Program-made: the position numbers and the translations under genes
Assembly: GCF_945957265.1 (NCBI RefSeq)
Contig: NZ_CAMFKO010000007.1
Location: 1 to 64,000, forward strand
Origin: an uncultured Dechloromonas sp.
GTDB taxonomy: Bacteria; Pseudomonadota; Gammaproteobacteria; Burkholderiales; Rhodocyclaceae
Length of the DNA stretch: 64,000 bases
Direction of reading: 5' to 3'
Shown: positions 18,969 through 35,053 of the stretch, in pieces
Layout of the letters: every line of letters begins with the position of its first letter
Position numbering within the stretch: the first letter of the stretch is position 1
The notes under the pieces: generated by a model
The model's input: the letters and a program-made list of their open reading frames with translations, nothing else
What the model was told of the DNA's origin: nothing
Databases searched by the model: none

Positions 18969-19060
18969 GGACTAAGCCTTTATTCTCAAAGTGGTTTATA
19001 GAAGTTTGCCGCGAAACGGCTGATGCGCCGCAACGGAGTTGAATGTAGAATGCGCGCCGT

Positions 19061-19240
19061 GTCAGGTGCTGCGCGCGGAATCTCCAAGCGCGGTTAAACG
19101 GGAAAGCGGTGCGTCTCAAAAAGACCATTCCGCTGCTGCCCCCGCAACGGTAAGCAAGTGCGGGCGTATCACAAGGCCACTGGGAAAACCCGGGAAGGCG
19201 ATACGTCAAGACTTGCCAGCCCGGATACCGGCCTGGGACA
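19061..19240 (+). promoter_or_regulatory. cobalamin riboswitch 1
   Basis: A classic adenosyl/cobalamin aptamer: GTCAGGTGCTG at the 5' end, GGTTAAACGGGAAAGCGG, the core GCTGCCCCCGCAACGGTAAG, GGCCACTGGG, then the B12 box-like GCCAGCCCGGATACCGGCCT. It lies 114 bp before the first TonB receptor. A downstream hairpin (GAAGTGC 19249-19255 with GCACCTTC 19298-19305, one bulge) ends in TTTT, consistent with transcription termination when B12 is bound. Confidence 0.96.
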
Positions 19241-19248
19241 AAAATGTC

Positions 19249-19309
19249 GAAGTGCCACGGGGTGGTGGCGCCGGATTTTCTGGCCAATCCCGCTCGCGCA
19301 CCTTCTTTT
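19249..19309 (+). terminator. putative riboswitch-controlled terminator 1
   Basis: A hairpin whose outer arms GAAGTGC and GCACCTTC pair with one bulged base and is followed directly by TTTT. The loop region is GC-rich and can pair further. Lies between the cobalamin aptamer and the receptor start. Confidence 0.5.
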
Positions 19310-19353: not shown

Positions 19354-21513
19354 ATGAATATCCATTTGCGACCCATCGCGCTCGGCCTGATCACGGCCTT
19401 CGGACAGGCCTCCGTTGCCTCCGCCCAACAAACGCTCGACACGCTTGTCGTCACGGCGAATCGCAGCGCGCAACTGCTCGAACACGCGACCGGCGAAACC
19501 GTGGTCATCGGCGCCAAGGAAATCGAGGCCAGGCAAACCGATCGCCTGACCGACATCCTCAACACCACGGCAGGGGTATTCGTATCGACCGGCAAGGGCC
19601 CGCTGCAAACGGCGCCGGGCTTCGCGCTGCGCGGCATTCCCAGCGACCGCCGCGCGCTCGTCCTGCTCGACGGCGTGGCCATGACCGATGGCTACGCCGG
19701 CAGCGTCCTGCTCGGCGGCATACCGACCGACTCGATTCGCCAGACCGAAATACTCTTCGGGCCGATGTCTTCCCTGTACGGCGGCAATGCGATGGGCGGC
19801 GTAGTCAACTTCGTGACCCGCATGCCGACCCGCACCGAGTTCGGCTTCAACGTCGGCTATGGCGATGCCTTCGAGTCGGGCAAGGCGGCAGCCGATGTCC
19901 AGAAAGCCTACATCCATGCCGGAACCCGGCTGGACAACGGGCTGGCGATCCGCTTCACCGGCAACTGGGGACAAACCAACGGTTATCGCAGCGAATGGGT
20001 CACCGGCAGTCGCCCGGCCAATTCGAACGGCGCCATCCCGACCAGCAGCGAAATGGGCGCGGGAACCTTCCTGCTCGGGCAGAAAGGCGACAACACCTGG
20101 AAGGAGCACGGCGCCTCGCTCAAGCTCGAGCAACGGGTCGACACCGATTTCACCTGGCGCGCCGGCTGGCTGCTGCAGGACTACCACTACGGCTATGGCG
20201 CACCGCAATCCTTCGTGCGCAGCAATGCAACCGGTACGCCCGTCTACAGCGTCTCGTTTGCCGGTGGCGACAGCGACTACAGCCGCCAGATATTCCACGC
20301 CGGCTTCGACAGCAAGCTGGGAATCGGCCGCCTGAACGTGCTGGCCAGCCACACCGACGTGACGGCCAATTCCTTCATCATCGCCACCACCGGAACGGCC
20401 TTCGGCGGCCCGGGCCGCATCAGCGACAGTCCGTCGGAGTCGACGACCCTCGACACCTACTGGAATGCCTCGCTCGGCGCCCACGACCTGACCGTCGGCT
20501 ACGCCTACCGTCAGGACTCGGCGGACACCAAGGACTACACGCTCAGCAACTGGGGCAACCCCGAATCGAAGACTGCCCTCTATTCGTCGGCCTCCGGCAA
20601 GATGTACCTGAATGGTGCCTACCTCCAGGACAACTGGCTGCTGGCGCCCAATCTCACGCTGCAGGGGGGCCTGCGTTACGACCACTGGCTCAACGCCAAC
20701 GGCCAGAGCAGCGACCCCTCGGGCATCTACAGCCATGCCGAGCGAACCGCCTCGGCATGGAGCCCGAAGCTGGGGGCCTCGTGGCGCGTCACCGACGCCT
20801 TCACGCTGCGCACCTCGGCCGGCAAGGCCTTCCATGCGCCAACAGTGTACGACCTGTATCGCAGCTCCACACTGACCACCTACAACATCAGCGCCAACCC
20901 GGCGCTGGAGCCGGAAACCGTCAAGTCCTGGGAGCTCGGCGGCGACTGGCGCGCCTGGCATGGCGGCGAAATCCGCGCCACCTATTTCTACAACGAGATC
21001 GACAACCTGATCTACCTCGGCCCGCGCAAGCCCGGCCCCGGCGGCAAGGATGTCCGCCTGCGCATCAACGCCGGCAAGGCCCGGACCGATGGCATCACGT
21101 TCAGCGTGACGCATCATTTCGATGCCGACAACCGGGTGTTCGCCAATTTCACCTATACGCACAGCGAGATGCTGGAAAACAACGCCTCGCCATCGTCGGT
21201 CGGCAAGCGCCTGACCGGCCTGCCGGAAAAACAGGCCAGCATCGGCTTCGAAAGGCGCCACGGCAACTGGCTGCTGTCGAGCAGCGGCCGCTACGCCAGC
21301 AAGCAATACTCGGACGACGCCAATGCCGATGCCGCCGTTGGCGTGTACAAGGCCTATGACGCCTATTTCGTCGTCGACAGCAAGCTGAGCTACCGCTTCA
21401 ACAAGGAACTGACTGCCTCGCTGGCCGTCAGCAACCTGCTCGACCGGGAGTATTTCTCGTACTACGCTGCACCCGGCCGCGCCTGGTTCGCGTCGCTGAC
21501 CTACAAGTATTAA
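19354..21513 (+). CDS. TonB-dependent receptor under cobalamin riboswitch 1
   Basis: A 719-residue outer-membrane receptor. A signal peptide ends at ASVASA (about residue 24); the TonB box DTLVVTA is at 29-35; the plug domain (about 45-155) has the ALRGI and NFVTRMP segments; the rest is a 22-strand barrel ending in an aromatic residue (SLTYKY). A GGAGGGG site precedes the ATG. Control by a B12 riboswitch indicates a corrinoid, cobinamide or cobalt-complex substrate. It is longer than and clearly different from the BtuB-like receptor that follows. Confidence 0.93.
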   Translation: MNIHLRPIALGLITAFGQASVASAQQTLDTLVVTANRSAQLLEHATGETVVIGAKEIEARQTDRLTDILNTTAGVFVSTGKGPLQTAPGFALRGIPSDRRALVLLDGVAMTDGYAGSVLLGGIPTDSIRQTEILFGPMSSLYGGNAMGGVVNFVTRMPTRTEFGFNVGYGDAFESGKAAADVQKAYIHAGTRLDNGLAIRFTGNWGQTNGYRSEWVTGSRPANSNGAIPTSSEMGAGTFLLGQKGDNTWKEHGASLKLEQRVDTDFTWRAGWLLQDYHYGYGAPQSFVRSNATGTPVYSVSFAGGDSDYSRQIFHAGFDSKLGIGRLNVLASHTDVTANSFIIATTGTAFGGPGRISDSPSESTTLDTYWNASLGAHDLTVGYAYRQDSADTKDYTLSNWGNPESKTALYSSASGKMYLNGAYLQDNWLLAPNLTLQGGLRYDHWLNANGQSSDPSGIYSHAERTASAWSPKLGASWRVTDAFTLRTSAGKAFHAPTVYDLYRSSTLTTYNISANPALEPETVKSWELGGDWRAWHGGEIRATYFYNEIDNLIYLGPRKPGPGGKDVRLRINAGKARTDGITFSVTHHFDADNRVFANFTYTHSEMLENNASPSSVGKRLTGLPEKQASIGFERRHGNWLLSSSGRYASKQYSDDANADAAVGVYKAYDAYFVVDSKLSYRFNKELTASLAVSNLLDREYFSYYAAPGRAWFASLTYKY

Positions 21514-21561
21514 CCCGGAGCTATCTCACTGTTATTCAAGCATTACGCCATGTAAAATGGC

Positions 21562-21748
21562 AGGCGTTACAGGTGCTGCGCACGGACTCTCCAAGCGCAG
21601 TTAAACGGGAAAGCGGTGCGTCTCCGAAAAGACCATTCCGCTGCTGCCCCCGCAACGGTAAGCAAGTGCGGACGTATCACGAGGCCACTGGGAGACATCC
21701 TGGGAAGGCGATGCGTCAAGACTTGCAAGCCCGGATACCGGCCTGAAA
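21562..21748 (+). promoter_or_regulatory. cobalamin riboswitch 2
   Basis: An aptamer nearly identical to riboswitch 1: the same AGTTAAACGGGAAAGCGG type block, the core GCTGCCCCCGCAACGGTAAG, GGCCACTGGGA and AAGCCCGGATACCGGCCTG. TAAAAT at 21553-21558 may be the promoter -10. It controls the btuB-btuC-btuD-btuR run. Confidence 0.96.
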
Positions 21749-21757
21749 CGCCAACGG

Positions 21758-21813
21758 AAGTGCCACCTGGCGCCATGACGGCTCCCTGCGAGCCGCCAGG
21801 CGCCGGCACTTTT
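21758..21813 (+). terminator. riboswitch-controlled terminator 2
   Basis: A long interrupted hairpin: AAGTGCC (21758-21764) pairs with GGCACTT (21805-21811), CCTGGCG (21766-21772) with CGCCAGG (21794-21800), and an inner GGCT/AGCC. It ends in TTTT, the form of an intrinsic terminator acting as the expression platform. Confidence 0.75.
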
Positions 21814-21860: not shown

Positions 21861-23828
21861 ATGAATCCACGCTTCAAGCCCCTGGCGGCCCTGCCTGCCC
21901 TCGCGCTGTCCGCGGCCCTTGCGCAGGCCCAAGCGCAACTGGACACCGTGGTCGTCACCGCGACGCGTTTTGCCGAGAAGCTACCGGCCGCAGCCGGCAA
22001 CATCAGCATCATTTCCCGGGAAGACATCCGCAACTCGGCGGCCCGCAGCATTCCCGACCTGCTGAAGAGCAGCGCCGGCATCATGGTCACCCCGCTCTAC
22101 GGCAGCATGGGCATCGATGCCACGGTGGACCTGCGCGGCTTCGGCGACACGTCGGCCAGCAACACGCTGATCCTGATCGACGGCCAGCGCATGAACCCGA
22201 TCGACATGAGCGCCATCGACTGGTCGATCATCCCGCTGTCGAATATCGAACGCATCGAAATCATGCGCGGCGCCGGCACAGTTCTCTATGGCGACCGGGC
22301 AACCGGCGGCGTGATCAACATCGTCACCGACAAATCGGCGCGCAATGCCGCCTCGGCCGCCCTGGGTTTCGGCAGTTTCAACACGCACACCGTCGACGGC
22401 GAACTATCCGTCGGCGGTCGCCAAGCCTATGCCAACCTGAAAGCCCATTACGCCGATACCGACGGTTGGCGCAAGAACAGCCAGGCCGACCAGAAATCCC
22501 TGGCCGGCCGCCTGGGCTGGGCCTTTGCCCTGGGTGACGCATTCACCGACTTTGCCTTCTACAGCGAAAGCGCCGGCGCTCCCGGCTCGATCGCCGAGCG
22601 GGTTTACCGGACCGATCCCCGACAAGCGCGCAACCCGCTCGACACCCAGCGCAAGGATGGCTACCGCATCCGCCCCGGCGTCGCCCTGCAGTTCGCCGAC
22701 AGCCTGCGTTTCGAGGCCGAGGTGTCGATCGAGCACGCCGACCAGCATTTCGAGAACTTTTCCTTTGGCAGCGTCTCCGACCGCCAGCGCGACATGGTGT
22801 CGCTGACCCCGCGCCTGCGCTGGGCGCACGGGCTGGGCCGGATGAAAAGCGAGACCATCCTCGGCGCCGACCACTACGCCGGCACCGTGACCAACACCTA
22901 TTCGTCGTACGCCAACAACCGCTCCGAGCAAGACAGCACGGCGGCCTACCTGCAGAACACGACCAGCCTGACCGACCGCCTGGCACTAACCCTGGGCGCC
23001 AGAACCCAGAGAATGAAGCAGCGCGCCGACCAGGAGGCCTATCCGGCCTATTTCATGGCGGCGATGAGCGGTCGCAGCGAACGCTCGCGCAGCGCCTGGG
23101 ATGCCAGCCTGGCCTATAACGGCGACGGCTGGCGCACCTATGGAAAGCTGGGCACGACCTACCGCTTCGCCAATACCGACGAATTGTTCGGCTATGACGC
23201 GCTGACCGGCAACACCGTATTTGCCGGCGACCTCAAGCCTCAGCACGGCACGATCGGCGAGGTGGGCGGCAGCTTCGTCCGCGGGCCGGTCTCCGCGCAG
23301 GCTTCGCTCTACCAGATCGACCTCGAGGACGAGATTGGCTACGACGGCGCCAAGGGGGCCAACGTCAACTTCGATCCGACCCGGCGGCGCGGCCTGGAAG
23401 CGGAGATGACCTGGCGCATCACCCCGACGCTGAAATCCCGACTGGCCTACACCTACGCCCAGGCCGAGTTCCGCGCAGGCCGCTACGAGGGCAAGGCGGT
23501 GCCGATGGTCCCTGGCAACAAGGCCTCCCTGCTGATCAACTGGGATGGCGGCTCGATCGGCAGCTACGGCGTGTCGACCAACTACGTCGGCGACCGTCGC
23601 TTCAGCGGCGACTACGCCAACAACCGCCAGATACTCTCGGGCTACACCACCGTCGACCTGCTGGCCGACTGGAAGACCGGGCCGGTCACGCTGTCGGCGC
23701 GCGTCCTCAACGCCACCAACAAGCGCTACGCCCCCTACGCCCTCTATTCGACGGCACGCAGCGATTATTTCTACTACCCGGGCGACCAGCGCAGCTTCTT
23801 CGTCAACGTCCGCTACGACTTCAAGTAA
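21861..23828 (+). CDS. btuB: vitamin B12 TonB-dependent receptor BtuB
   Basis: A 655-residue outer-membrane receptor with a signal peptide (to about AQAQA, 25), TonB box DTVVVTAT at 28-35, a plug with LILIDGQRMNPIDM and ERIEIMRGAGTVLYGDRATG, and a 22-strand barrel ending in VNVRYDFK. Size and plug fit BtuB. It follows cobalamin riboswitch 2 and is immediately followed by btuC (stop and start adjacent: TAAATG), then btuD and btuR, so it is the outer-membrane step of a B12 import and adenosylation operon. Confidence 0.93.
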   Translation: MNPRFKPLAALPALALSAALAQAQAQLDTVVVTATRFAEKLPAAAGNISIISREDIRNSAARSIPDLLKSSAGIMVTPLYGSMGIDATVDLRGFGDTSASNTLILIDGQRMNPIDMSAIDWSIIPLSNIERIEIMRGAGTVLYGDRATGGVINIVTDKSARNAASAALGFGSFNTHTVDGELSVGGRQAYANLKAHYADTDGWRKNSQADQKSLAGRLGWAFALGDAFTDFAFYSESAGAPGSIAERVYRTDPRQARNPLDTQRKDGYRIRPGVALQFADSLRFEAEVSIEHADQHFENFSFGSVSDRQRDMVSLTPRLRWAHGLGRMKSETILGADHYAGTVTNTYSSYANNRSEQDSTAAYLQNTTSLTDRLALTLGARTQRMKQRADQEAYPAYFMAAMSGRSERSRSAWDASLAYNGDGWRTYGKLGTTYRFANTDELFGYDALTGNTVFAGDLKPQHGTIGEVGGSFVRGPVSAQASLYQIDLEDEIGYDGAKGANVNFDPTRRRGLEAEMTWRITPTLKSRLAYTYAQAEFRAGRYEGKAVPMVPGNKASLLINWDGGSIGSYGVSTNYVGDRRFSGDYANNRQILSGYTTVDLLADWKTGPVTLSARVLNATNKRYAPYALYSTARSDYFYYPGDQRSFFVNVRYDFK

Positions 23829-24806
23829 ATGCCCACCCGCCAGCGCGCCATCCTGATTCTTTGCTGCCTCGTCCTGCTCACCGCGGCGAGCTTCGGGTTC
23901 GCGTTGACGGTCGGCAGCTTCAAGGTTTCCTACGGCGATGTCTTCGCGGCACTGCTCGGGCACGAAGGCGGCGGCGGCGAAGTCGTGCTGCAGCTGCGCC
24001 TGCCGCGCGCCATCGCCGGCTTTGCCTGCGGCGGCCTGCTGGCGCTGGCCGGCGCGCTGATGCAGGTGCTGCTGCGCAATCCGCTGGCCGACCCCTACGT
24101 GCTGGGCATTTCCGGCGGCGCCGGCGCGGGGGCGATGTTCGCCATCCTGATCGGCCTGCCGGTCATCGGCATCGACGGGCTGGCTTTCGTCGGCGCGCTC
24201 GGGGCGATGTTCGTCGTCTTCGGGCTGGCCCATGGCGACGGCAGCTGGACGCAGACCCGCCTTCTGCTCACCGGCGTCATCGTCGCCGCCGGCTGCGGTG
24301 CGCTGGTCGCGCTGATGCTGGCCATCGCCGAGGAGCACAAGCTGCGCGGCATGCTGTTCTGGCTGATGGGCGACCTCGGCCAGAGCAGCCGATGGTGGCC
24401 GGCCTTGCTGGCGCTCGGCGTGGCGCTGGCGCTGGCCATGCCTTTCGCCCGCGAGCTGAACCTGCTGTCGCGCGGCATGATGCAGGCCCAGGCTCTCGGC
24501 GTGGCGGTCGATCGGCTGCGCTATGCGATCTACCTGCTCGCCTCGCTGGCGACGGCGGCCTCGGTGACGACGGCCGGCTCCATCGGTTTCGTCGGGCTGG
24601 TCGTGCCGCACCTGGTCCGGCTGGCCACCGGCAACGACCAGCGCCTGCTGCTGCCGGCCTCGGTGCTGGCCGGCGGCTCGCTGCTGGTGCTCGCCGACAC
24701 GCTGGCGCGCACCATCATCGCCCCCCAGCAGTTGCCGGTCGGCGTGCTGACCGCCCTGATCGGCGTGCCGGTCTTCCTGTTCCTGCTGTCGAGGCAGCCG
24801 AAATGA
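23829..24806 (+). CDS. btuC: cobalamin ABC transporter permease BtuC
   Basis: A 325-residue FecCD/BtuCD-family permease with about ten helices. Family segments are LRLPRAIAGFACGGLLALAG and NPLADPYVLGISGGAGAG near the N-terminus and IGFVGLVVPHLVRL near the C-terminus, the latter contacting the ATPase. It starts on the base after the btuB stop. No binding-protein gene (btuF) is adjacent, so the periplasmic carrier must be elsewhere or replaced. Confidence 0.93.
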   Translation: MPTRQRAILILCCLVLLTAASFGFALTVGSFKVSYGDVFAALLGHEGGGGEVVLQLRLPRAIAGFACGGLLALAGALMQVLLRNPLADPYVLGISGGAGAGAMFAILIGLPVIGIDGLAFVGALGAMFVVFGLAHGDGSWTQTRLLLTGVIVAAGCGALVALMLAIAEEHKLRGMLFWLMGDLGQSSRWWPALLALGVALALAMPFARELNLLSRGMMQAQALGVAVDRLRYAIYLLASLATAASVTTAGSIGFVGLVVPHLVRLATGNDQRLLLPASVLAGGSLLVLADTLARTIIAPQQLPVGVLTALIGVPVFLFLLSRQPK

Positions 24807-25576
24807 GCCTGCCGCTGATCGAAACCCGGCAACTGCGCGTCACCATCGGCGACAAGGCGATCATCGACGCCCTCGACCTCGGCGTGGCCAGCGGCGAAAG
24901 CCTGGCGATCCTCGGCCGCAACGGCGCCGGCAAGTCGACCCTGCTATCCACCCTGGCCGGCCTGCGCAAGCCGGCTGGCGGCAGCGTCCTGCTCCAAGGC
25001 GAAGCGCTGGCCTCGCTCCCCCCCCGGCAGGCCGCCTTGCGCCGCGCCTGGCTGGGACAATTCCAGAGCGACCCCTTCGGTTCGACCGTGCTGGAAACGG
25101 CCTTGACCGGTCGCCACCCCCACCTCGGCCGCTGGGACTGGGAGTCGACCGGCGACGCCGAACTGGCGCGCGACGCGCTGAAGGCGGTGGGGCTCGACGG
25201 CATGGAAACCCGGCAGATCCATACCCTCTCCGGCGGCGAACGCCAGCGGCTGGCCATCGCCACCCTGCTGACGCAGGCCGCCCCGCTCTACCTGCTCGAC
25301 GAGCCGCTCTCGCACCTCGACCTCAACCACCAGATGGCGGTCCTCGACCTGTTCGCCGGCGCCGCGCGCAACGACGGCGCGGGCGTCATCATGGTCCTGC
25401 ACGACCCGGCGCTGGCCCACCGTTTCTGCGACCGGGCGCTGCTCGTCCATGGCGACGGGCAAACCCGCCTCGGGCCGGTCGACGACATCCTGACAGCGGC
25501 AACGCTGTCCGAACTCTACGGCTACGGCCTGCGGCAGATCGAAGACCGCGGCCACCGCTGTTTCATTCCGGAATAG
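24803..25576 (+). CDS. btuD: cobalamin ABC transporter ATP-binding protein BtuD
   Basis: A 257-residue ATPase with Walker A GRNGAGKST (38-46), signature LSGGERQRLAIA and Walker B LYLLDEPLSHLDL followed by the switch histidine in MVLHDP. ATGA overlap with btuC fixes the start. The gene energises B12 import with BtuC. It is related to FecE/FhuC-type iron-complex ATPases, so assignment to B12 rests on the riboswitch and neighbours. Confidence 0.92.
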   Translation: MSLPLIETRQLRVTIGDKAIIDALDLGVASGESLAILGRNGAGKSTLLSTLAGLRKPAGGSVLLQGEALASLPPRQAALRRAWLGQFQSDPFGSTVLETALTGRHPHLGRWDWESTGDAELARDALKAVGLDGMETRQIHTLSGGERQRLAIATLLTQAAPLYLLDEPLSHLDLNHQMAVLDLFAGAARNDGAGVIMVLHDPALAHRFCDRALLVHGDGQTRLGPVDDILTAATLSELYGYGLRQIEDRGHRCFIPE

Positions 25577-25579: not shown

Positions 25580-26170
25580 ATGACCGTCACCCACGAACAA
25601 CGCATGCAGAAAAAGAAGGCCGTGATCGACAACAAGATCGCCTCGGCCCAGCAGGAACGCGGCGTCCTGCTGATCAACACCGGCAACGGCAAGGGCAAGT
25701 CGAGCGCGGCCTTCGGCGTCGTCGCCCGCGCCCTCGGCCACGGCCTCGAGGTGGGCGTCGTCCAGTTCGTGAAGGGGCGCGGCGACACCGGCGAACAGGC
25801 CTTCTTCCGTCAGCAGACGAATGTCGCCTGGCATGTCGGCGGCGAGGGCTTCACCTGGGAAACCCAGGACAAGGAACGCGACGCCAAGGCGGCGCAGGCC
25901 GCCTGGGCCGTCGCCTGCGGCCATTTGAGCAACCCGGACATCGGCCTCGTCGTGCTCGACGAAATGACCTACGCCTTCAAGTACGGCTGGCTCGATCTCG
26001 ACACGGTGATCGCCAAGCTGCTAGCGCGGCCGCCGATGCAACACGTCATCATCACCGGCCGCACCGCCCCGCAGGCCCTGCGCGATGCGGCCGACACGGT
26101 GAGCGATATCGGCAACGAAAAGCATGCCTTCGCCGCCGGCGTCAAAGCCATGCCCGGCCTCGACTGGTAA
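25580..26170 (+). CDS. btuR: corrinoid adenosyltransferase (BtuR/CobO family)
   Basis: A 196-residue enzyme transferring adenosyl from ATP to Co(I) corrinoids, giving adenosylcobalamin. The P-loop TGNGKGKSS is at 34-42, followed by AFGVVARALGHGLEV; VLDEMTYAFKYGWLD and ITGRTAPQALRDAAD are family signatures. It lies 3 bp after btuD, so imported B12 can be adenosylated at once, for example for methylmalonyl-CoA mutase at the left of the window. Confidence 0.95.
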   Translation: MTVTHEQRMQKKKAVIDNKIASAQQERGVLLINTGNGKGKSSAAFGVVARALGHGLEVGVVQFVKGRGDTGEQAFFRQQTNVAWHVGGEGFTWETQDKERDAKAAQAAWAVACGHLSNPDIGLVVLDEMTYAFKYGWLDLDTVIAKLLARPPMQHVIITGRTAPQALRDAADTVSDIGNEKHAFAAGVKAMPGLDW

Positions 26171-26177: not shown

Positions 26178-29100
26178 ATGCGCCACGCCGGCTCCCGCCC
26201 GACGCGCCTCGGGCGATACGCCCTTGTCCTGGCCTGCGCCCTGGGCGCGGCCAGCGCGTCGGCGGCCACGCTGCTCGGCATCGTCACCGAACGCGCCGCG
26301 CCGACCGCCATCGAAGCCGCCCACCGCCACCTCGCCACCCACCCGCAGGACCGCATCGAACTGCGCACCCCGGCGCAGCTGATGGCCGCCAGCGACAAGC
26401 AGGTCGCACAATGGCTGGGGCGAGCCGACAGCGTGCTGGCCGTCTCGGTCTTCGGCGATCCGGCGCGCCGCCTGAAGGATGCCCTGGCCCGCCACGCCCG
26501 GCCGCAGACCGCCATCCTGGCCATGAACGGCGAAGCCGGCTTGAGCCTGATGAGCCGCGACGACGCCGGAACGCTCGCCCGCTTCCCGGCCGAAACCCTG
26601 CGCCAGCTGGCGCTCGAGAACCCGCCGGAGGCCGCCCTGGCCGCCGCCGCGGCCGAGCCGACCGCCCGCCACTGGCTGGCCGCCCGCCGCATCTGGCAAT
26701 CCGGCGGCACCGACAACACGGCGCAGCTGCTCGCCCACCTGCTCAAGCCCGGCCTGCCGCTCGGCCAACCGAAGCCGGAGCCGACCCTGCGCCTGCGCGT
26801 CGGCAACGAAGAGCTGAGCGATGAACGGGCCTGGGGCCAGGCGGCCCGCCTCGGACTGAAGAGCGGCCCGGCCGTCGTCGTCCTCGACCTCGCCAACATG
26901 GATGGCCGCGCGCCCGCCGCGCTGTGCCGCGCCGTCGAACAAACCGGCCAGCCCTGCGTGCAGGTGCTGACCCGCTGGGGCGGCGCCTCGCGCCAGGCGC
27001 TGGAACGTCTGCCGGAGCTGATTGCGCCGGCCCGGCCATCCGCCCTGGTCGTGCTGCAGGATTTCGTCGTCGGCGCCGCCGAAGGCCGCGAAGCCGTGAC
27101 CGAGGCCTTCCGCCAGCTCGACGTCCCGGTCTTCAAGGCCATCCGCCTGACCGAGCGGAGCGCCGCGCAATGGCGCCTGTCGCCGGATGGCCTGCCGGCC
27201 GACTCGGTGCAATACCGCGTCGCGCTGCCCGAGCTGCAGGGCATCGGCCAGCCCATCGTCGTTTCCGCGCTGGGCAAGGCGCAGGCCGACCGCCTGACCG
27301 GCATCGAGACCCGGCCGCCGGTGATGCTCGCCGCCGAGATCGACCGCCTCGCCGCGCGCAGCGCCCGCTGGCAGGTCCTGCGCAGCAAGGCCAACGCCGA
27401 CAAGCGCCTGGCCATCGTCTACTACAACCACCCGCCCGGCCGGCAGAACATCGGCGCCGACAACCTCGACGTACCCAACACGCTGTTCGACATGCTGCAT
27501 GCCCTGAAGGCCGCCGGCTATAACGTCGGCGAGCTGCCGGCGACGCCGGAAGCCCTGCTCGACCACATCATGGCGCACGGCGTGAACCTGCCCGAGGATC
27601 GCGCCGCGCTGCGCGAACTGGGCCGCTCGGTGGCGCACGTGACGGCGGCCGACTACGCGCGCTGGTTTGCCACCCTGCCCCCCCGCATCCAGGGCGAGAT
27701 GACCCGCGGCCCGCTCGGCCGCCTGCACGCCGAGGCGCTCGAAGCGGAAGCCGGCAACGAACGCGCCGTCGGCCGCAAACGGGTCGATGCGGTGCTCAAG
27801 GAACTGCACCACCTGGTCGAAGGTGCCGACCATCCGCAGCGCGCGCGGGCGATCCGCGACCTGCAGGCGCTGGAGAAAGGCTACCAGGCCTGCCTCGCCG
27901 ACACGCCAACCAAACGCTGCGCCAGCCTCGCGCCGCTGGCCCGCCGCCTGACCGGCTATGGCATCGAGGGCATGCAGGGCTGGGGCGAAGCGCCCGGCAA
28001 GGTGATGGTCGATGACGGCAAGCTGCTCGTCCCCGGCCTGCGTTTCGGCAACGTGTTCATCGGCCCGCAGCCACCGCGCGGCTGGGAAGTCGACGAGGAA
28101 CTGCTGCACGCCAACACCAGCGTCACGCCGCCGCACCAGTACCTGGCTTTCTACCACTGGCTGCGCGACCGCTTCAGGGCCGACGCCGTGGTCCATGTCG
28201 GCCGCCACTCGACCTACGAATTCCTGCCCGGCAAGGCGGTCGGCCTCGCCGCCGACGACTACCCGAGCCTGATCGCCGCCGACCTGCCCGGCATCTACCC
28301 CTACATCGTCGATGGTGTCGGCGAGGGCACCCAGGCCAAGCGCCGCGGCCTGGCCGTGATGGTCGACCACCTGACCCCGCCGCTCGCCGCGACGCCGCTC
28401 TACGACCAGCTGCTGGTGCTGCGCCAGATCGTCGAGAGCTACGAGGCGGCGTCGTCCGAATCGCTGAAGATGCAGGCCGCCCGCACCATGCGCGAGAAGG
28501 TCGTCGAGCTGAACCTGAAGGCCGAACTGGAAGCCTCGATGGCCGACGTGCTGCAGGTTCGCGGCATCGGCTTCGAGGCGGCCGACGACGACCTGCTGGC
28601 GCACGAGGTCGGCCACTACCTGACCAAGCTGCAGGAAAAGTTCATGCCCTACGGCCTGCACGTCTTCGGCCGCGACTGGAGCCAGGAATCGCTCGACCTG
28701 ATGCTGGCTTCGATGAAGCAGGGCGGCATCGACGACCCGCTCACCGCGCACAAGCTCAAGGATTCGCCGCGCCTCGAAATGCAGGGCCTGCTGGCCGGGC
28801 TGGACGGCCGCTACATCCCGCCGGGCAAGGGCAACGACCCGCTGCGCTCGCCCGAATCGCTGCCCACCGGCCGCAACTTCCACGCCGTCGATGGCGACAT
28901 CCTGCCCACCCACCTCGGCTACAAGCTGGGCAGCGACCTGGCCGCCAAGGCATTGGCAAGAAGTCGCAACGAACGAGGCTCCGAGGGCATCATCCTGTGG
29001 GCCTCCGATGCCGTGCGCGACGAAGGCGTCATGGTCGGCTTCGCGCTCGCCCTGATGGGCGCCGAGCCGGTGTGGAACGCCCGCGGCATCGTCACCGACG

Positions 29101-30530
29101 TCCGCCTCAAGCCGGACGCCGTGCGGCGCGACGTGGTCATCACCACCTCCGGCCTGTTCCGCGACCTCTACCCCAACCTGATCAACCTGATCGACCGCGC
29201 CGGGCGCCTGGCCCTGGCCGCTTCCGCCGCCGGGCTGGCCGAACGGCGCCCCGAGCTGAAGGACGCCCTGGACGCGGCGCTGGCCGCCGTGCCGACCGCC
29301 AGCCGCGGCCGGGAAGCGCCGGAAAACAACCGCGTCGCCCGCGAATGGCTGGCCCGCCTCGCCGCCCTCGAACAGTCCGGCCTGCCGACCAAAGAGGCCG
29401 GTCGCGCCGCCGCCCAGCGCATCTTCGGCGACGCCCCGGGCGCCTACGGGGCCGGCGTCAATCGCCTGACCGAACGCTCCGGCGCCTGGCGCGAACGCGA
29501 CGAGATCGGCCGCGCCTACCGCAACCGCATGGGCCACGCCTACGGCCTCGACGACAGCGGCGAGGCCGCCCACGCCGCCTTCGACACCGCCCTCGACGGC
29601 ATCCAGCGCACCTACCACGGCCGGGCCAGCAACCTCTACGGCCTGCTCGACAACAACGACGCCTTCGACTACCTCGGCGGCCTGTCGCTGGCCATCGAGG
29701 GGCGCACCGGCCGGCCGCCGGAGGCGCTGATCCTGCAGCATGCCGAACCCGGCCGCGCCGATGTCGAACCGCTAACCAGCGCCCTGCTCGGCGAACTGCG
29801 CGGCCGCTTCCTGAATCCGGCCTGGCTCAAGCCGCTGATGGGCCACGGCTATGCCGGCGCCCGGACGATGGGCCAGGAATTCCTCGAAAACCTGTGGGGC
29901 TGGCAGGTCACCCGCCCCGACCTGGTCAAGAACTGGGCCTGGGACGAGGTCAAGTCGGTGTATTTCGACGACGCCCACAAGCTCGGCCTGCCGCAATTCC
30001 TCGGCCAGGGCCACAACGCCCACGTCAAGGCGCACATGCTGGCCATCTTCATGGTCGCCGCCGAAAAGGGCTTCTGGCAGACCGACGCCGCGACGATCAG
30101 GAAGATGGGCGGCGAACTGGCCCGCCTGGTCGCCAAAAACGGCCTGCCGGGCAGCGGCCACACCGCCCCCAACCACCCGATGTGGCAATGGCTGGCGCCG
30201 CAGCTCGACGCGGCCGACGCGCAGGCCCTGGGCGTCACGCTGGCCAAGGCGCGCGGCGAACTGGTTGCCGCCGCGCCAGCCGGCCAGCCCACCGCGCACC
30301 CGCAAGCCTCCGCCAACGCCCCGGCCGCCGCCCCGCAAGCCCCGCCGGCAACCGAAACGGCGCCGCCGCCCCGCTACTACGAGCTGCAAACGCTGGCCGA
30401 TACGGCCAGCACGGCTCAACGCACCCTGCCCATCCTCGCCCTGCTCGCCGCCGCCTTCGCCCTGTTCGGGCTCGGGCTGTGGCGCGGCCGGCAAGGCCCC
30501 GCTCTCACCTCCGGAGAAATCCATGTCTGA
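26178..30530 (+). CDS. exported, membrane-anchored CobN-like chelatase-family protein
   Basis: A 1450-residue CobN/BchH-family protein. The core motif VHVGRHSTYEFLPGK (from about residue 672) and GVGEGTQAKRRGLAVMVDHL match the active region of CobN and Mg-chelatase H subunits. Unlike cytoplasmic CobN, it has a clear signal peptide (RLGRYALVLACALGAASASA, residues about 10-29) and a C-terminal membrane helix (about 1417-1435) after an Ala/Pro-rich linker, ending with a short basic tail. So the bulk should be periplasmic and tethered to the inner membrane. No CobS/CobT AAA+ partner is encoded here. Overlap of 8 bp with the next gene shows coupling. Comparable to HmuS-type CobN-like proteins of haem-uptake loci; the substrate here may be a corrinoid (inference). 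Confidence 0.88.
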   Translation: MRHAGSRPTRLGRYALVLACALGAASASAATLLGIVTERAAPTAIEAAHRHLATHPQDRIELRTPAQLMAASDKQVAQWLGRADSVLAVSVFGDPARRLKDALARHARPQTAILAMNGEAGLSLMSRDDAGTLARFPAETLRQLALENPPEAALAAAAAEPTARHWLAARRIWQSGGTDNTAQLLAHLLKPGLPLGQPKPEPTLRLRVGNEELSDERAWGQAARLGLKSGPAVVVLDLANMDGRAPAALCRAVEQTGQPCVQVLTRWGGASRQALERLPELIAPARPSALVVLQDFVVGAAEGREAVTEAFRQLDVPVFKAIRLTERSAAQWRLSPDGLPADSVQYRVALPELQGIGQPIVVSALGKAQADRLTGIETRPPVMLAAEIDRLAARSARWQVLRSKANADKRLAIVYYNHPPGRQNIGADNLDVPNTLFDMLHALKAAGYNVGELPATPEALLDHIMAHGVNLPEDRAALRELGRSVAHVTAADYARWFATLPPRIQGEMTRGPLGRLHAEALEAEAGNERAVGRKRVDAVLKELHHLVEGADHPQRARAIRDLQALEKGYQACLADTPTKRCASLAPLARRLTGYGIEGMQGWGEAPGKVMVDDGKLLVPGLRFGNVFIGPQPPRGWEVDEELLHANTSVTPPHQYLAFYHWLRDRFRADAVVHVGRHSTYEFLPGKAVGLAADDYPSLIAADLPGIYPYIVDGVGEGTQAKRRGLAVMVDHLTPPLAATPLYDQLLVLRQIVESYEAASSESLKMQAARTMREKVVELNLKAELEASMADVLQVRGIGFEAADDDLLAHEVGHYLTKLQEKFMPYGLHVFGRDWSQESLDLMLASMKQGGIDDPLTAHKLKDSPRLEMQGLLAGLDGRYIPPGKGNDPLRSPESLPTGRNFHAVDGDILPTHLGYKLGSDLAAKALARSRNERGSEGIILWASDAVRDEGVMVGFALALMGAEPVWNARGIVTDVRLKPDAVRRDVVITTSGLFRDLYPNLINLIDRAGRLALAASAAGLAERRPELKDALDAALAAVPTASRGREAPENNRVAREWLARLAALEQSGLPTKEAGRAAAQRIFGDAPGAYGAGVNRLTERSGAWRERDEIGRAYRNRMGHAYGLDDSGEAAHAAFDTALDGIQRTYHGRASNLYGLLDNNDAFDYLGGLSLAIEGRTGRPPEALILQHAEPGRADVEPLTSALLGELRGRFLNPAWLKPLMGHGYAGARTMGQEFLENLWGWQVTRPDLVKNWAWDEVKSVYFDDAHKLGLPQFLGQGHNAHVKAHMLAIFMVAAEKGFWQTDAATIRKMGGELARLVAKNGLPGSGHTAPNHPMWQWLAPQLDAADAQALGVTLAKARGELVAAAPAGQPTAHPQASANAPAAAPQAPPATETAPPPRYYELQTLADTASTAQRTLPILALLAAAFALFGLGLWRGRQGPALTSGEIHV

Positions 30531-30966
30531 CGCCACCACCTTCGCCTGGCTGCACGATGCCGTCACCTGGCTGCTCACCCCGGCGCTCGCCGCCCTGATC
30601 CTGGCCTGCGCCATCGCCACCATCGAAGCCGGCATCGCCGTCGGCGAACGCTTCGGCGGCCTGGCCCGCCTGCAGGGCGGCGGCGATGTCGGCGCCCTGC
30701 AGAAGGTCGCCCGCCACCGCCTGGAACGCGCCGACCTGCTCGCTCGCATCCCGCCCATGCTCGGCCTGATGGCCACCATCATCCCGCTCGGGCCGGGCCT
30801 CGCCGCGCTCGGCAAGGGCGATCCGGCGCAGCTCGCCAGCGCCGTCACCGTCGCCTTCGACGCCACCGTGCTCGGCCTGGTCGCCGGCATCGGCGGCCTG
30901 GTCATCGGCAAGCTGCGCCGCCGCTGGTACGAGGAAGCCCTGGAAGCGATGGAGGACGGGCTATGA
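30523..30966 (+). CDS. MotA/TolQ/ExbB-like proton-channel protein
   Basis: A 147-residue inner-membrane protein with three helices: WLLTPALAALILACAIATI, IPPMLGLMATIIPLGPGL and VTVAFDATVLGLVAGIGGL. The second and third resemble the TolQ/ExbB helices that surround the proton path (compare the TolQ gene in this window). A GGAG site lies 8 bp before the ATG, inside the end of the CobN-like gene. It is shorter than TolQ. With the next protein it probably forms a proton-motive-force motor for the CobN-like protein (inference). Confidence 0.85.
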   Translation: MSDATTFAWLHDAVTWLLTPALAALILACAIATIEAGIAVGERFGGLARLQGGGDVGALQKVARHRLERADLLARIPPMLGLMATIIPLGPGLAALGKGDPAQLASAVTVAFDATVLGLVAGIGGLVIGKLRRRWYEEALEAMEDGL

Positions 30967-31283
30967 GCGAGCTGCAGCCGAGAAAGCGCCTGCGCCTCTA
31001 CGCAAAGCTCGACGCCCGTTTCGACGACCGCGACGAAGACCCGCGCGCCAGCCTGGTCAATCTGGTCGATGTCATGCTGGTCTTCGCCTGCGGCCTGCTC
31101 GCCGCGCTGGCGGCCGGCAGCCAGGCTGCGCTCAAGGCGCCGCAGCCGGTCGAGAAGGGCCAGGAAATCGAACGCCCCGCCGTCGGCGCGCAACAAGCCG
31201 GCAGCGGCTACGACCGGGTCGGCGAAGTCTTCCGCGACCCGAAGACCGGCAAGCTCGTGCTGATCGAGCCGGCCAAGCCGTAA
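30963..31283 (+). CDS. DUF2149 protein with TolR/ExbD-like membrane segment
   Basis: A 106-residue protein with a basic cytoplasmic N-terminus, one membrane helix (about 31-52) and a periplasmic tail ending DPKTGKLVLIEPAKP. The helix entry LVNLVDVMLVFACGLL, with Asp36 in the membrane, closely resembles [13 protein letters not shown] of the TolR gene in this window, whose Asp carries protons. ATGA overlap with the MotA/ExbB-like gene makes them a pair. I infer an ExbD-like role; the family itself has no established function. Confidence 0.85.
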   Translation: MSELQPRKRLRLYAKLDARFDDRDEDPRASLVNLVDVMLVFACGLLAALAAGSQAALKAPQPVEKGQEIERPAVGAQQAGSGYDRVGEVFRDPKTGKLVLIEPAKP

Positions 31284-31339
31284 TTCTTCAGCGCCTGCCC
31301 TTCCGGCGGCAGGACGCCACGAGCAGTCAGCCGGAAACA

Positions 31340-31525
31340 CGCAACAGGTGCCCGCCGCCGCAAGGCGTCGGGTGAAACGGGAACGGGGTGCGCGATCCGT
31401 GCGATCGCAATGCCCCGGCTGCCCCCGCAACGGTAAGCGAGTGCGGATGCATCATCAGGCCACTGAGTGAAAACTTGGGAAGGCGGTGCGTCAAGACTTG
31501 CCAGCCCGGAGACCGGCCTGTCGCT
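31340..31525 (+). promoter_or_regulatory. cobalamin riboswitch 3
   Basis: An aptamer with CAACAGGTGCCCGCC, GGTGAAACGGGAACGGGG, the core GCTGCCCCCGCAACGGTAAG, AGGCCACTGAGTG and GCCAGCCCGGAGACCGGCCTG. It is more diverged from the other two in the variable arms. No T-tract terminator follows; instead GACCG/CGGTC (around 31562-31592) forms a hairpin just before the ribosome site, suggesting control of translation. Confidence 0.95.
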
Positions 31526-31605
31526 TCGTGCTGTCCGCCCCGTGCGGCAGCGATTGCAACGGACCGTCTGCGGGAATGCGGGCGGTCGTTCGATGGAGTA
31601 TCACC

Positions 31606-33708
31606 ATGCAGCACCGCCTCATCTTCCCCGCCGCGCTCGCCACCCTGGCCAGCATCGGCAACCTCCACGCCGCCGGCATGCCGACCCTGCAGGAAGTCAC
31701 CGTCAGTTCCGGCAAGCAGGACCTGACCGGCGTCGCCGATTCGGCCACCGAAGGCACGGTCACCGCCAAGCAACTCGCCAACCGGCCGCTGCTGCGCCCG
31801 GCCGAGGTCCTGGAAGCGGTGCCCGGCATGATCGTCACCCAGCACTCCGGCGACGGCAAGGCCAACCAGTATTTCCTGCGCGGCTTCAACCTCGATCATG
31901 GCAGCGATTTCGCCACCCACGTCCTGGGCATGCCGGCCAACATGGTCAGCCATGCCCACGGCCAGGGCTACATGGACGTCAATTTCATCATTCCCGAGCT
32001 GATCGGCGGCCTCAAGTACCGCAAGGGCGTCTACGCGGTGGAAGACGGCGATTTCACCACCACCGGCTCGGCGCGCATCGACTACCTGCGCAGGCTGGAC
32101 CGCAGCTTCGTCGAACTCGGCATGGGCCAGCACAATTTCCGCCGCCTGCTCGCCGCCGGCGGGCAGACCGTCGGCGACATCAACCTGATCGCCGCGGTGG
32201 ATGTCGGCGGCTACGACGGCCCCTGGGAGCAGGCGCAAAACCTCGACAAGACCAACGCCGTGCTGCGCCTGACCTCGGGCAGCGCCGCCAACGGCTTTTC
32301 CCTGACCGGCATGGCCTACAAGGCCGACTGGACGGCCACCGAGCACGTGCCGGAACGCGCCATCAGCAGCGGCGAAATCGGCCGCTACGGCGCGCAATCC
32401 CGCAACGACGGCGGCAAGACGCACCGCTACAGCCTGTCCGGCGACTGGGCGCGTACCACCGACAGCGGGGCCAGCAAGCTCAACCTCTACGTCATCGACT
32501 ACGGCCTGCACTATTTCGCCAATCCGTCCGGCTACATCAACAGCGTCCAGGGCGACCAGCACGAACAGGCCGACGAGCGCACGCTGTGGGGCGGCCAGGC
32601 CCGGCACAGCTGGTTCCTCGGGCCGCAGTGGAAGGACACCGAACTCAGCGTCGGCGCCCAGCTGCGCCAGGACCGCGTTTCTTCACTCGGTCTCTACGCC
32701 ACTGAAAACCGTCAGCGGATGCAGACGGTACGCGAGGACCGCATCCGCGAAACCGCGCTCGCCATGCTGCTCGAGGCGCGCACGCAATGGACCGGCTGGC
32801 TGCGCAGCACGCTCGGCCTGCGCCGCGACCAGATCGACGCCCGCGTCACGCCGCTGGCCGGCCAGTTCAACATGAGCAACGGCGGCAACGCCTCGGCCGG
32901 GCAGACCAGCCCGAAGCTGGGCCTCGTCCTCGGCCCCTTCGACCTGCTCGGGCCGACCGAGTTCTACGCCAACTGGGGCCGCGGTTTCCACAGCAACGAC
33001 GCGCGCGGCGCCACGGCGCGCACCCATCCGCAGGACGGCAGCGCGGTCGACGCGGTGCCGCTGATCGTCAAGGCCAAGGGCAGCGAAGTCGGCCTGCGCA
33101 CCACGCCGCTCAAGGGCTGGCACAGCAACCTGTCGCTCTGGCAGATGGACCTCGCCTCCGAGCTGGTCTTCATCGGCGACGAAGGGATCACCGAGCCGAA
33201 GGGCGCCTCCCGCCGCCACGGCATCGAATGGTCCAACTACATCACGCCGGCCGACGGCTGGATCATCGACGCCGACGTCGCCTGGTCGCAGGCCCGCTTC
33301 AAGGAAGCCAACGCCGACAACGGCGGGCGCCGCGTCCCCAACGCCATCCCGCTCACCGCTTCGCTCGGTGTTGCCGCCGACAACGGTGGCCCGTGGTTCG
33401 GCGGCCTGCGCCTGCGCTACCTCGGCGCCTACGCGCTGGAGGAAACCGGCGAGCACAAATCCGCCGCTTTCTGGATGGCCAACCTGAAGGCCGGCTACCG
33501 CATCACGCCGCAGCTGCAGCTCACGCTCGACATCCTCAACCTGTTCGACAAACGGGCCAACGACATCGAATACTGGGGCGGCGCCTGCTCGCGTAACGAA
33601 GCGCTGGCCGGCACCGGCGGCTGTGGCTCGGGCACGGCCATCGACGGCCGCCTGGTCCACCCGCTCGAACCGCGCACCTTCCGCGTCGGCCTGCGCGCCA
33701 GCTTCTGA
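31606..33708 (+). CDS. TonB-dependent receptor under cobalamin riboswitch 3
   Basis: A 700-residue outer-membrane receptor. A signal peptide ends near LHAA (22-23); the TonB-box-like EVTVSSG is at 30-36; the plug has YFLRGFNLDHGSDFATHV and the barrel closes with FRVGLRASF. GGAG lies 8 bp before the ATG, and the start is well after the riboswitch. It belongs to a different receptor subfamily from the two upstream (plug with the RGFNLDHG signature). It lies directly downstream of the CobN-like/ExbB-like/DUF2149 cassette and upstream of cobB, so a corrinoid or precursor is the expected cargo. Confidence 0.92.
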   Translation: MQHRLIFPAALATLASIGNLHAAGMPTLQEVTVSSGKQDLTGVADSATEGTVTAKQLANRPLLRPAEVLEAVPGMIVTQHSGDGKANQYFLRGFNLDHGSDFATHVLGMPANMVSHAHGQGYMDVNFIIPELIGGLKYRKGVYAVEDGDFTTTGSARIDYLRRLDRSFVELGMGQHNFRRLLAAGGQTVGDINLIAAVDVGGYDGPWEQAQNLDKTNAVLRLTSGSAANGFSLTGMAYKADWTATEHVPERAISSGEIGRYGAQSRNDGGKTHRYSLSGDWARTTDSGASKLNLYVIDYGLHYFANPSGYINSVQGDQHEQADERTLWGGQARHSWFLGPQWKDTELSVGAQLRQDRVSSLGLYATENRQRMQTVREDRIRETALAMLLEARTQWTGWLRSTLGLRRDQIDARVTPLAGQFNMSNGGNASAGQTSPKLGLVLGPFDLLGPTEFYANWGRGFHSNDARGATARTHPQDGSAVDAVPLIVKAKGSEVGLRTTPLKGWHSNLSLWQMDLASELVFIGDEGITEPKGASRRHGIEWSNYITPADGWIIDADVAWSQARFKEANADNGGRRVPNAIPLTASLGVAADNGGPWFGGLRLRYLGAYALEETGEHKSAAFWMANLKAGYRITPQLQLTLDILNLFDKRANDIEYWGGACSRNEALAGTGGCGSGTAIDGRLVHPLEPRTFRVGLRASF

Positions 33709-33775: not shown

Positions 33776-35053
33776 ATGCCCGCCTGCCCCGCCCTCCTCA
33801 TCGCCGCCCCCGCTTCCGGCCAGGGCAAGACCACCGTCACCGCCGCCCTGGCCCGCCTGCATGCCCGGCAAGGCCGGCGCGTCACCGTCTTCAAGTGCGG
33901 CCCTGACTTCCTCGACCCGCAGATCCATGCCTTCGCCAGCGGCCGCCCCTGCCAGAACCTCGATCTCGGCATGTGCGGCGAAGCCGATGCCCGCTGGCGC
34001 CTGGCCCGCGCCGCGGCCGATTCCGACCTGATCCTGATCGAAGGCGTCATGGGCCTGTTCGACGGCCAGCCCTCGGCCGCCGATATCGCCGAACGCTTCG
34101 CCATTCCGGTCATGGCCCTGATCGACGCCGGCAAGATGGCGCAGACCTTCGGCGCCGTCGCCCACGGCCTGGCCAGCTACCGTCCCGGCCTGCCCTTCGC
34201 CGGGGTGCTCGCCAACCGCGTCGGCAGCCCGCGCCACGCCGGCATGCTGCAAGACAGCCTGCCGCCCGGCATGGGCTGGTTCGGCGCCCTGCCGAAAAGC
34301 GACGACAGCCTGCCCGAGCGCCATCTCGGCCTGCTCCAGGCGGCCGAGATCGACGACCTCGGCGAGCGCCTCGACAAGCTGGCCGACGCCCTGGCGGCCA
34401 GCGCCAGCGTCGACCTGCCCGCCCCCGTCGCCTTCCCCGAGGCCGATGCGCCGGCCACCGCCCCGCTGCTCGCCGGCAAGACCGTCGCCATCGCCCGCGA
34501 CGCGGCCTACGGCTTCATCTACCCGGCCAACCTGCAGACGCTGCAGCAGCTGGGCGCCGAGCTGCGCTTCTTCTCGCCGGTCGCCGGCGACGCCCTGCCC
34601 GCCTGCGACGCCGTCTGGCTGCCGGGCGGCTACCCGGAACTGCACGCCCCGGCCATCGGCGCCAATGCGGCGCTGTGGCGGCAGTTGCGCGCCCACGTCG
34701 ACGCCGGCAAGCCCCTGCTCGCCGAATGCGGCGGCATGATGAGCCTGTTCGAGGAGGTCGTGGACAAGGCCGGTACCGCCCATCGCTTCGGCGGCCTGCT
34801 GCCCGGCCGCTCGGTGATGCAGAAGCGCCTGGCCGCCCTCGGCACGCAATTCGTCGATCTGCCGGAAGGCGCGCTGTCCGGGCACACCTTCCACTATTCG
34901 AAAAGCGAGTCGCCGCTGGCCCAGCTGACCCGGGCGCGCACCGCCGACGGGCGCGACGGCGAGGCCGTCTACCGGCTGAACCGGCTGACCGCGTCGTATG
35001 TCCATATCTACTTCCCGTCCAATCCGGAAGCGATAGCGGCCCTGCTCGGCTGA
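33776..35053 (+). CDS. cobB: cobyrinate a,c-diamide synthase CobB/CbiA
   Basis: A 425-residue ATP- and glutamine-dependent amidase that amidates the a and c side chains of the corrin ring. The N-terminal ATPase domain has the P-loop APASGQGKTTV and FKCGPDFLDPQIH; the C-terminal type-1 glutamine amidotransferase domain has the nucleophile Cys318 in LLAECGGMM and GHTFHYSKSE. Start chosen at MPACPALLIAA. It is the only corrin-ring biosynthetic enzyme in the window, which suggests salvage of an incomplete corrinoid or a biosynthesis cluster continued elsewhere. Confidence 0.95.
   Translation: MPACPALLIAAPASGQGKTTVTAALARLHARQGRRVTVFKCGPDFLDPQIHAFASGRPCQNLDLGMCGEADARWRLARAAADSDLILIEGVMGLFDGQPSAADIAERFAIPVMALIDAGKMAQTFGAVAHGLASYRPGLPFAGVLANRVGSPRHAGMLQDSLPPGMGWFGALPKSDDSLPERHLGLLQAAEIDDLGERLDKLADALAASASVDLPAPVAFPEADAPATAPLLAGKTVAIARDAAYGFIYPANLQTLQQLGAELRFFSPVAGDALPACDAVWLPGGYPELHAPAIGANAALWRQLRAHVDAGKPLLAECGGMMSLFEEVVDKAGTAHRFGGLLPGRSVMQKRLAALGTQFVDLPEGALSGHTFHYSKSESPLAQLTRARTADGRDGEAVYRLNRLTASYVHIYFPSNPEAIAALLG

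Follow-up and report, generated by a model that had tools for sequence, protein, structure and literature searches.

Cytosolic CobN of the CobNST cobaltochelatase and its relatives ChlH/BchH share a PF02514 body with a superfamily histidine, and they are served by ATP-driven rings, CobS/CobT or ChlI/ChlD. Among the closest known systems is HmuS (Protein Data Bank entry 9d26), an exported, anchored PF02514 protein of the Bacteroidota hmu operon, which also carries an ExbB-family gene (hmuU), a DUF2149 gene (hmuV) and a TonB-dependent receptor. According to published work, HmuS takes iron out of heme in the absence of ATP but in the presence of membranes and NADH, and the role given to its ExbB-like/DUF2149 partners is in heme import (PMC12583661, PMC10100974). 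Here, we describe a related gene set in an uncultured Dechloromonas sp. (Rhodocyclaceae), found in the first 64,000 nucleotides of contig NZ_CAMFKO010000007.1 (assembly GCF_945957265.1); we call this whole stretch the window. The set consists of a gene for an apparently exported CobN-like protein followed by an exbB-like and a DUF2149 gene, and it lies among cobalamin riboswitches.

Several relatives of this arrangement are already in print. CobN-like proteins named 'BtuS' (PMC6460266, citing Rodionov 2003) and hmu-like operons under B12 riboswitches in Bacteroides (PMC10100974) connect CobN relatives with B12 regulation or tetrapyrrole salvage; the Proteobacterial clade, a CobN motor and the joint absence described below do not appear in the text consulted from these two sources. 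The published cobN cluster on plasmid pSZ77 of Trichlorobacter (Geobacter) lovleyi has a CobN-like protein without CobST (PMC3403914), and we found an ExbB-like/DUF2149 pair and cobalamin riboswitch matches there. Its CobN differs in belonging to another branch of exported CobN, and its ExbB/ExbD/TonB genes have been read as transport genes (PMC3403914). The operon PA1922-PA1925 of Pseudomonas aeruginosa is likewise described as combining genes for a TonB receptor, a CobN-like protein and an ExbD-like protein, but it is zinc-regulated as part of the Zur regulon (PMC4542158). The stators ExbB/ExbD, TolQ/TolR, MotA/MotB and ZorA/ZorB resemble the pair in the window in their ExbB-like fold and in the acidic transmembrane residue of the partner, which here is DUF2149; the ExbB-like protein of the window is, in contrast, just 147 aa long, and its DUF2149 partner lacks a Pfam ExbD match and has no clear periplasmic domain in a low-confidence model. 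A literature search, mostly of open papers, found in the text consulted no coupling of CobN to an ExbB-like/DUF2149 motor, no joint absence and no HExGH clade.

Our preferred reading, to which we assign a probability of roughly one half (0.52), is that the locus encodes a vitamin-B12-repressed salvage machine in which a periplasmic CobN-like protein, driven by an ExbB-like/DUF2149 stator of its own, acts on a corrinoid before import. The CobN-like protein would reside in the periplasm, tethered by its C-terminal helix, and would bind corrinoid supplied by the TonB-dependent receptors encoded alongside. The ExbB-like/DUF2149 pair would be its own proton-driven stator, with proton flow past the DUF2149 aspartate moving or twisting CobN through the C-terminal helix, and would thereby take the role that the ATP-driven rings have for cytosolic CobN and ChlH. 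BtuCD or BtuM would then bring in the processed molecule, still a corrinoid, for completion by CbiA, CobO and partners. The observations behind this reading are the gene order, the riboswitches, the export signal as judged by sequence, the ExbB/TolQ fold, the acidic helix, the near-exclusive pairing of the motor genes with cobN, and the joint absence of motor and CobN anchor. The step performed may be cobalt insertion, a ligand swap, the freeing of corrinoid from a carrier or a mere hand-over, candidates that look alike on sequence.

A scan of species genomes returned 99 relatives of the window CobN type, of which the best 80, at 47-86% identity, were named as loci. They come from Rhodocyclaceae, Oxalobacteraceae, Zoogloea, Methylophilaceae, Lysobacter, Pseudomonas, Stutzerimonas, Halomonas, Marinobacter and others. 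The cobN, exbB-like and DUF2149 genes stand in the same order on one strand in 60 of these 80 loci, and chance neighbourhood was rejected because of this recurrence. A same-strand cobalamin riboswitch match lies within 10 kb upstream in 78/80 loci (E up to 0.05, with a few low scores, down to 26.9 bits) and directly before cobN (<700 nt) in 39. The two loci without a match are L108, where the sequence ends 765 nt before the match, and L113, a partial gene. This survey used a cobalamin riboswitch model built in this analysis, with which Rfam was concordant in 12/12 loci given. In the window itself, the setting between cobalamin riboswitches that had been described in an original prediction, made from the sequence alone, is confirmed by three RF00174 matches of 105.9 to 118.9 bits, which exceed the 31.5-bit gathering score by a wide margin. 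The recurring riboswitched trio is a conserved module, and its riboswitch control suggests that the CobN-like protein is wanted when B12 is short. Its distribution is patchy: among 150 genomes of the order, the own genome counted, the window type is present at an identity of at least 59% in four, and the one congener sampled gave no match to it.

The CobN-like protein opens with an evident signal peptide, and at its C-terminal end a hydrophobic helix precedes basic residues; both were judged by eye and hydropathy, without a dedicated predictor. Its sequence bears no cytoplasmic signature, and we take the protein to be exported. The original prediction of a 1450-residue CobN-family protein with a signal peptide and a C-terminal anchor, encoded ahead of overlapping exbB-like and DUF2149 genes, is borne out by matches to PF02514, PF01618 and PF09919 and by hydropathy. 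The relatives of the CobN-like protein with solved structures are ChlH, HmuS (9d26) and CobN. Unlike cytosolic CobN and ChlH/BchH, it carries an export signal and an anchor, and it scores under every NCBIfam CobN/BchH cut-off listed (best 587.1 against 1619; TIGR02257 516.6 against 822.05).

Alignment shows that the superfamily active-site histidine is kept, as His677 in HVGRHS. In HmuS, His538 and His1209 face each other in the cleft (PMC12583661). The HmuS motif around the latter, LSLDHxxEFMGG, is not matched in the window protein, which reads LDNNDAFDYLGG in the alignment and has Asp1161 at the His1209 site. Both cytosolic CobN sequences displayed in the alignment also have aspartate at this site, as do several other exported ones; the Azospirillum row has histidine. 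An HExGH motif, similar to a metal-binding helix motif, is present in 80/80 members of the window CobN clade and in 0/28 other superfamily members. The methionine-rich domain IV insert of HmuS is absent from the CobN-like protein, as judged by reading the sequences side by side. At the level of the locus, the window differs from hmu in its cobalamin riboswitches, and hmuY and hmuT are not among the genes scanned. The window clade is not HmuS, because the second active-site histidine is an aspartate and the HExGH motif is private to the clade.

Phylogeny agrees that the two are distinct. A branch with 99% support in the Shimodaira-Hasegawa-like approximate likelihood ratio test (SH-aLRT) divides exported CobN from the cytosolic CobN and BchH proteins, and the window CobN clade and HmuS form two separate groups, each at 100%; these trees were quick searches with no bootstrap and with warnings of long branches and uneven composition, and L140_10222 was excluded from the second. 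B12-linked exported CobN occupies at least three places in the tree, namely the window clade, a Comamonadaceae-like set (L158, L186, L188 and L190) and T. lovleyi. A single clade for all of them was rejected by the approximately unbiased (AU) test (p-AU 1.9e-6), the group having been named after the first tree was seen. The Comamonadaceae-like loci, a second exported CobN branch, have cobalamin riboswitch matches in all four cases (32.8 to 78.3 bits), and B12 salvage genes lie near the exported CobN in L186, L188 and L190.

The ExbB-like protein has a TolQ/ExbB fold and the ExbB family PF01618 matches 39/39 aligned members at E up to 0.01, in agreement with the MotA/TolQ/ExbB-like identity first proposed. 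The threonine of its second transmembrane helix is kept in 38/38 proteins across module types. PF09919 matches all 41 aligned DUF2149 members of the window clade (E up to 1), and their transmembrane aspartate is invariant (41/41); across module types, an acidic transmembrane residue is found in 39/39, comprising 38 Asp and one Glu. The DUF2149 string LVNLVDVMLVF and its counterpart in the TolR gene (52530-52934, minus strand), to which the original prediction had drawn attention for the membrane aspartate, are both present in the window. The AlphaFold2 model of DUF2149 predicts only a short hairpin beyond the helix.

Genomic evidence independent of the original prediction supports its coupling of the motor pair to CobN. 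Among 397 Pseudomonadota genomes, including the own genome, DUF2149 occurs in 19 genomes with 20 genes; all 20 have an ExbB-like gene beside them and 19 are also clustered with a CobN gene. The count of 20 is an undercount, because the Pfam model misses clade members in whole-genome mode, such as the window's own gene and that of Halomonas. Eleven plasmid records contain DUF2149, and CobN is present in nine of the ten inspected (H3 was left out). At L140 (10222-14211, genome G149), an exported anchored CobN-like gene adjoins a cytosolic cobN, and a motor pair is found elsewhere in the genome (L141).

The Marinobacter loci provide a second line of evidence. Their CobN has a hydrophobic N-terminus and both body motifs in 15/15 loci, btuC is present in 15/15, and the riboswitch is kept in 14/15, the remaining contig being cut. 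The CobN C-terminal helix is found in 0/15 and motor genes beside cobN in 0/15. DUF2149 was not detected by Pfam in any of the 15 Marinobacter genomes, against 8/9 other genomes positive, nor by a profile of the clade's own (0/15; positive controls 3/3 found). Three Marinobacter placed on the trees group beside Halomonas, which has both helix and motor; anchor and motor have therefore probably been lost together. For a table of anchor and motor, 75/80 loci were kept (L078, L087, L088, L094 and L113 were dropped as incomplete or broken): 57 have helix and motor, 15 have neither, and three have by threshold a motor without the helix. L077 has an evident helix only just below the threshold, and in L075 (Methylobacillus glycogenes) a stop precedes the CobN helix, which is in a different frame, through a frameshift or an assembly error.

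These observations bear on the possibility that the ExbB-like/DUF2149 pair serves to energise TonB on behalf of the nearby receptors while the CobN-like protein acts alone. This is the published view of HmuU and HmuV (PMC12583661, PMC10100974); HmuV has been described as strongly like ExbD (PMC10100974), and receptors adjoin the module in many loci. Apart from the pairing and the Marinobacter loci, however, a separate ExbB-ExbD lies near the module in L137, L183 and the T. lovleyi plasmid locus, where it is part of an ExbB-ExbD-TonB set additional to the pair, and DUF2149 is matched in the archaeon Methanosarcina acetivorans (a control search); two CobN-like BtuS proteins have been reported in M. 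barkeri (PMC10846266). The lack of a Pfam ExbD match among DUF2149 members also speaks against TonB energisation. The pairing, the joint absence, the separate ExbB-ExbD and the archaeal DUF2149 are four lines that tie the pair to CobN rather than to TonB, and together they weigh against the published assignment of HmuU/HmuV to TonB energisation (PMC12583661, PMC10100974). We consider TonB energisation very improbable. A pure corrinoid carrier, in which a periplasmic corrinoid-binding protein relays its ligand from receptor to importer, the motor only resets it and no metal chemistry takes place, seems to us improbable, if less so. In its favour, a resemblance to periplasmic binding proteins has been noted for the head and neck domains of class I chelatases (PMC12583661), and a scan of the window genes around the module, not extended to the whole genome, recognised no BtuF. 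Against a carrier, a BtuF-like gene (>200 bits) is present in 21/80 loci, Marinobacter and Pseudomonas among them, and the superfamily histidine is kept and the private HExGH motif invariant.

HmuS, of the same superfamily, is reported to be a periplasmic heme dechelatase (PMC12583661) and has the same two partner genes (PMC10434189; the hmu operons L155-L157, which hold other exported CobN relatives), so a cobalt dechelatase has to be weighed, one that would take cobalt or another metal out of a metal-tetrapyrrole acquired by scavenging, the free metal then being imported. Related modules occur near nikR, in the P. aeruginosa Zur regulon (PMC4542158) and in a hyp operon that also holds a weakly NicO-like protein, and the window genome, having CbiM, CbiN and CbiX, could use cobalt. 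On the other side, CbiC/CobH is absent from 39 of 48 host genomes (47 from the 80 loci plus the own genome; 29/38 with a motor and 10/10 Marinobacter; the completeness of 47 is not given), so that most hosts would be unable to build a ring around freed cobalt. A corrinoid importer is encoded within 10 kb in 39/80 loci, as BtuC in 29 and as a BtuM-like protein replacing btuC in ten (nine Methylophilaceae and L099; best solved relative 8c7p, E 2e-55), in a search that covered corrinoid importers and not metal importers. Because of these two counts, corrinoid salvage is likelier than cobalt harvest. Cobalt is, moreover, very hard to take out of corrins, and the His1209 of HmuS is replaced by aspartate. 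In Bacteroides fragilis, a btuS1 btuS2 double mutant still freed protoporphyrin from heme (PMC6460266). We therefore hold dechelation to be unlikely, though it is the alternative we take most seriously. The original prediction had left the action on a corrinoid or cobalt-tetrapyrrole as remodelling, dechelation or passing on; of these, dechelation of a cobalt-tetrapyrrole now looks less likely than corrinoid salvage. Within salvage, cobO is found in 38/80 loci and cbiA in 37/80 (within ~10 kb), and the latter suggests salvage of under-amidated corrinoids. A bolder and doubtful idea, a little less credible to us than dechelation, is a class I chelatase driven by the proton motive force, in which an ExbB/ExbD-like membrane motor replaces the AAA+ ATP motor of CobN/ChlH in the periplasm. 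In the window clade, its task before import would be to repair scavenged corrinoids that are incomplete or metal-free, or to furnish them with cobalt, the product being passed to CbiA, CobO and the steps after them, and the HmuS, zinc and nickel versions would be the same engine working on other metal-tetrapyrroles.

A number of points weigh against the corrinoid salvage machine that we prefer. Proton drive, contact among the three proteins and a corrinoid as substrate are inferred features of it. The ExbD-like nature of DUF2149, part of the original prediction, has the acidic transmembrane residue in its favour; a Pfam ExbD match, in contrast, was found in 0/41 members (E up to 1), a profile comparison with TolR/ExbD gave 5%, from a partner alignment of only two rows, and the structure model is poor, with a predicted local distance difference test score (pLDDT) of 65.1. 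The pairing has exceptions: L189 (G565) has an ExbB-like/DUF2149 pair with no CobN within ~9 kb, the Paracoccus plasmid L131 has DUF2149 with neither CobN nor ExbB-like gene recognised, no motor lies near the exported anchored CobN of L140, and L067 genuinely departs from the pattern, with a motor but no clear CobN C-terminal helix. The Marinobacter joint absence is probably one event and not 15, and the motor must be dispensable for some function because the Marinobacter CobN persists without it. As to the substrate, 41/80 loci have no recognised corrinoid importer, the unstated completeness of most hosts bears on the CbiC/CobH absence, and CbiC is rare in the order anyway (10/150 genomes, own included). 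A special depletion of corrin synthesis in module hosts was accordingly rejected, CbiC being present in 9/48 hosts and 10/150 genomes of the order, with the own genome in both. The window genome itself carries corrin-ring genes, and the nickel, zinc and iron contexts of related modules favour metal release as the theme of the family.

The corrin-ring genes of the window genome, CbiX, CbiM, CbiN and CbiC, are encoded in one stretch, pointing to an early-cobalt-insertion corrin pathway independent of CobN. A role of the CobN-like protein as the de novo cobaltochelatase was rejected, given that CbiX is present and that the CobN-like protein is exported by sequence. As to the absence of CobS and CobT claimed in the original prediction, CobS (TIGR01650) had no genome match over its cut-off and two below it (30.4 and 20 bits), in an assembly that is 91.48% complete, and the search did not extend to CobT. 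The genome also has a second, diverged module on contig C35 (L006, 3557-14531), which comprises a receptor, CobN, a further receptor, a DUF4019 protein, an ExbB-like protein and DUF2149; the riboswitch model built here found no cobalamin riboswitch match at this module.

Among the related modules found on plasmids, that of Runella slithyformis pRUNSL01 (L133, 773-15031) consists of CobN, ExbB-like and DUF2149 genes with a receptor and a weakly NicO-like protein, and it is enclosed by a hypA-hypB-hypF ... hypC-hypD-hypE operon, a context that points to a form for nickel. On Azospirillum brasilense plasmid p4 (L130), the three genes are near a receptor and nikR, and a cobalamin riboswitch match (61.7 bits) lies just downstream of the DUF2149 gene.

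The features of the window locus are collected in the table below. Together, these plus-strand features make up a B12 acquisition locus. The cobN-like and exbB-like genes overlap by 8 nt and the exbB-like and DUF2149 genes by 4 nt. A 6S RNA match is found at 18189-18368 of the window (minus strand, 47.4 bits, barely over the gathering score), and 6S RNA lies near the locus in L043, L046 and L052 too.

Table. Features of the B12 acquisition locus in the 64,000-nucleotide window (aa, amino acids)
Feature	Position	Strand	Basis
Cobalamin riboswitch ahead of first TonB-dependent receptor	19047..19250	+	RF00174, 105.9 bits
TonB-dependent receptor (first)	19354..21513	+	PF00593/PF07715
Cobalamin riboswitch heading the cobN-like gene run	21554..21760	+	RF00174, 118.9 bits
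TonB-dependent receptor, BtuB-like	21861..23828	+	PF00593/PF07715; TIGR01779 155.8 bits, under its 599.7 cut-off
btuC-like permease	23829..24806	+	PF01032, 287.6 bits; top NCBIfam matches are BtuC, under cut-off
btuD-like ATPase	24803..25576	+	PF00005, 100.9 bits
cobO/btuR corrinoid adenosyltransferase	25580..26170	+	PF02572, 197.3 bits; TIGR00708 above cut-off
Predicted exported CobN-family protein, 1450 aa	26178..30530	+	PF02514, 825.6 bits; own clade in trees
Signal peptide, residues ~1-29	26178..26264	+	By eye, sequence and hydropathy
His677, counterpart of superfamily His (HmuS His538)	28206..28208	+	Alignment; motif from PMC12583661
HEVGH, residues 809-813 (clade-private HExGH motif)	28602..28616	+	80/80 clade loci, 0/28 other superfamily members
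Asp1161, position of HmuS His1209	29658..29660	+	Alignment
C-terminal transmembrane helix of CobN-like protein, residues ~1416-1435	30423..30482	+	Hydropathy
ExbB/TolQ-fold protein, 147 aa, three long helices	30523..30966	+	PF01618, 33.1 bits (cut-off 22.9)
DUF2149 protein, 106 aa, one helix with Asp36 and a short hairpin	30963..31283	+	PF09919, 38.1 bits (cut-off 27.1)
Cobalamin riboswitch ahead of third TonB-dependent receptor	31329..31535	+	RF00174, 110.3 bits
TonB-dependent receptor (third); close relative (>500 bits) in 11/80 loci	31597..33708	+	PF00593/PF07715
cbiA/cobB cobyrinate a,c-diamide synthase	33776..35053	+	PF07685 and PF01656

An exported CobN with what appears to be its own motor, under B12 riboswitches, suggests a machine, so far unstudied, that deals with B12-like molecules on the outer side of the inner membrane. 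If the ExbB-like/DUF2149 pair powers a protein of the chelatase family, it would provide an energy source that has been missing for exported CobN proteins in general, in their iron, zinc, nickel and B12 forms. It would also represent a new kind of job for the ExbB/MotA stator family, assign DUF2149 a role and extend the salvage of B12, a main currency of microbial communities, by a periplasmic step.

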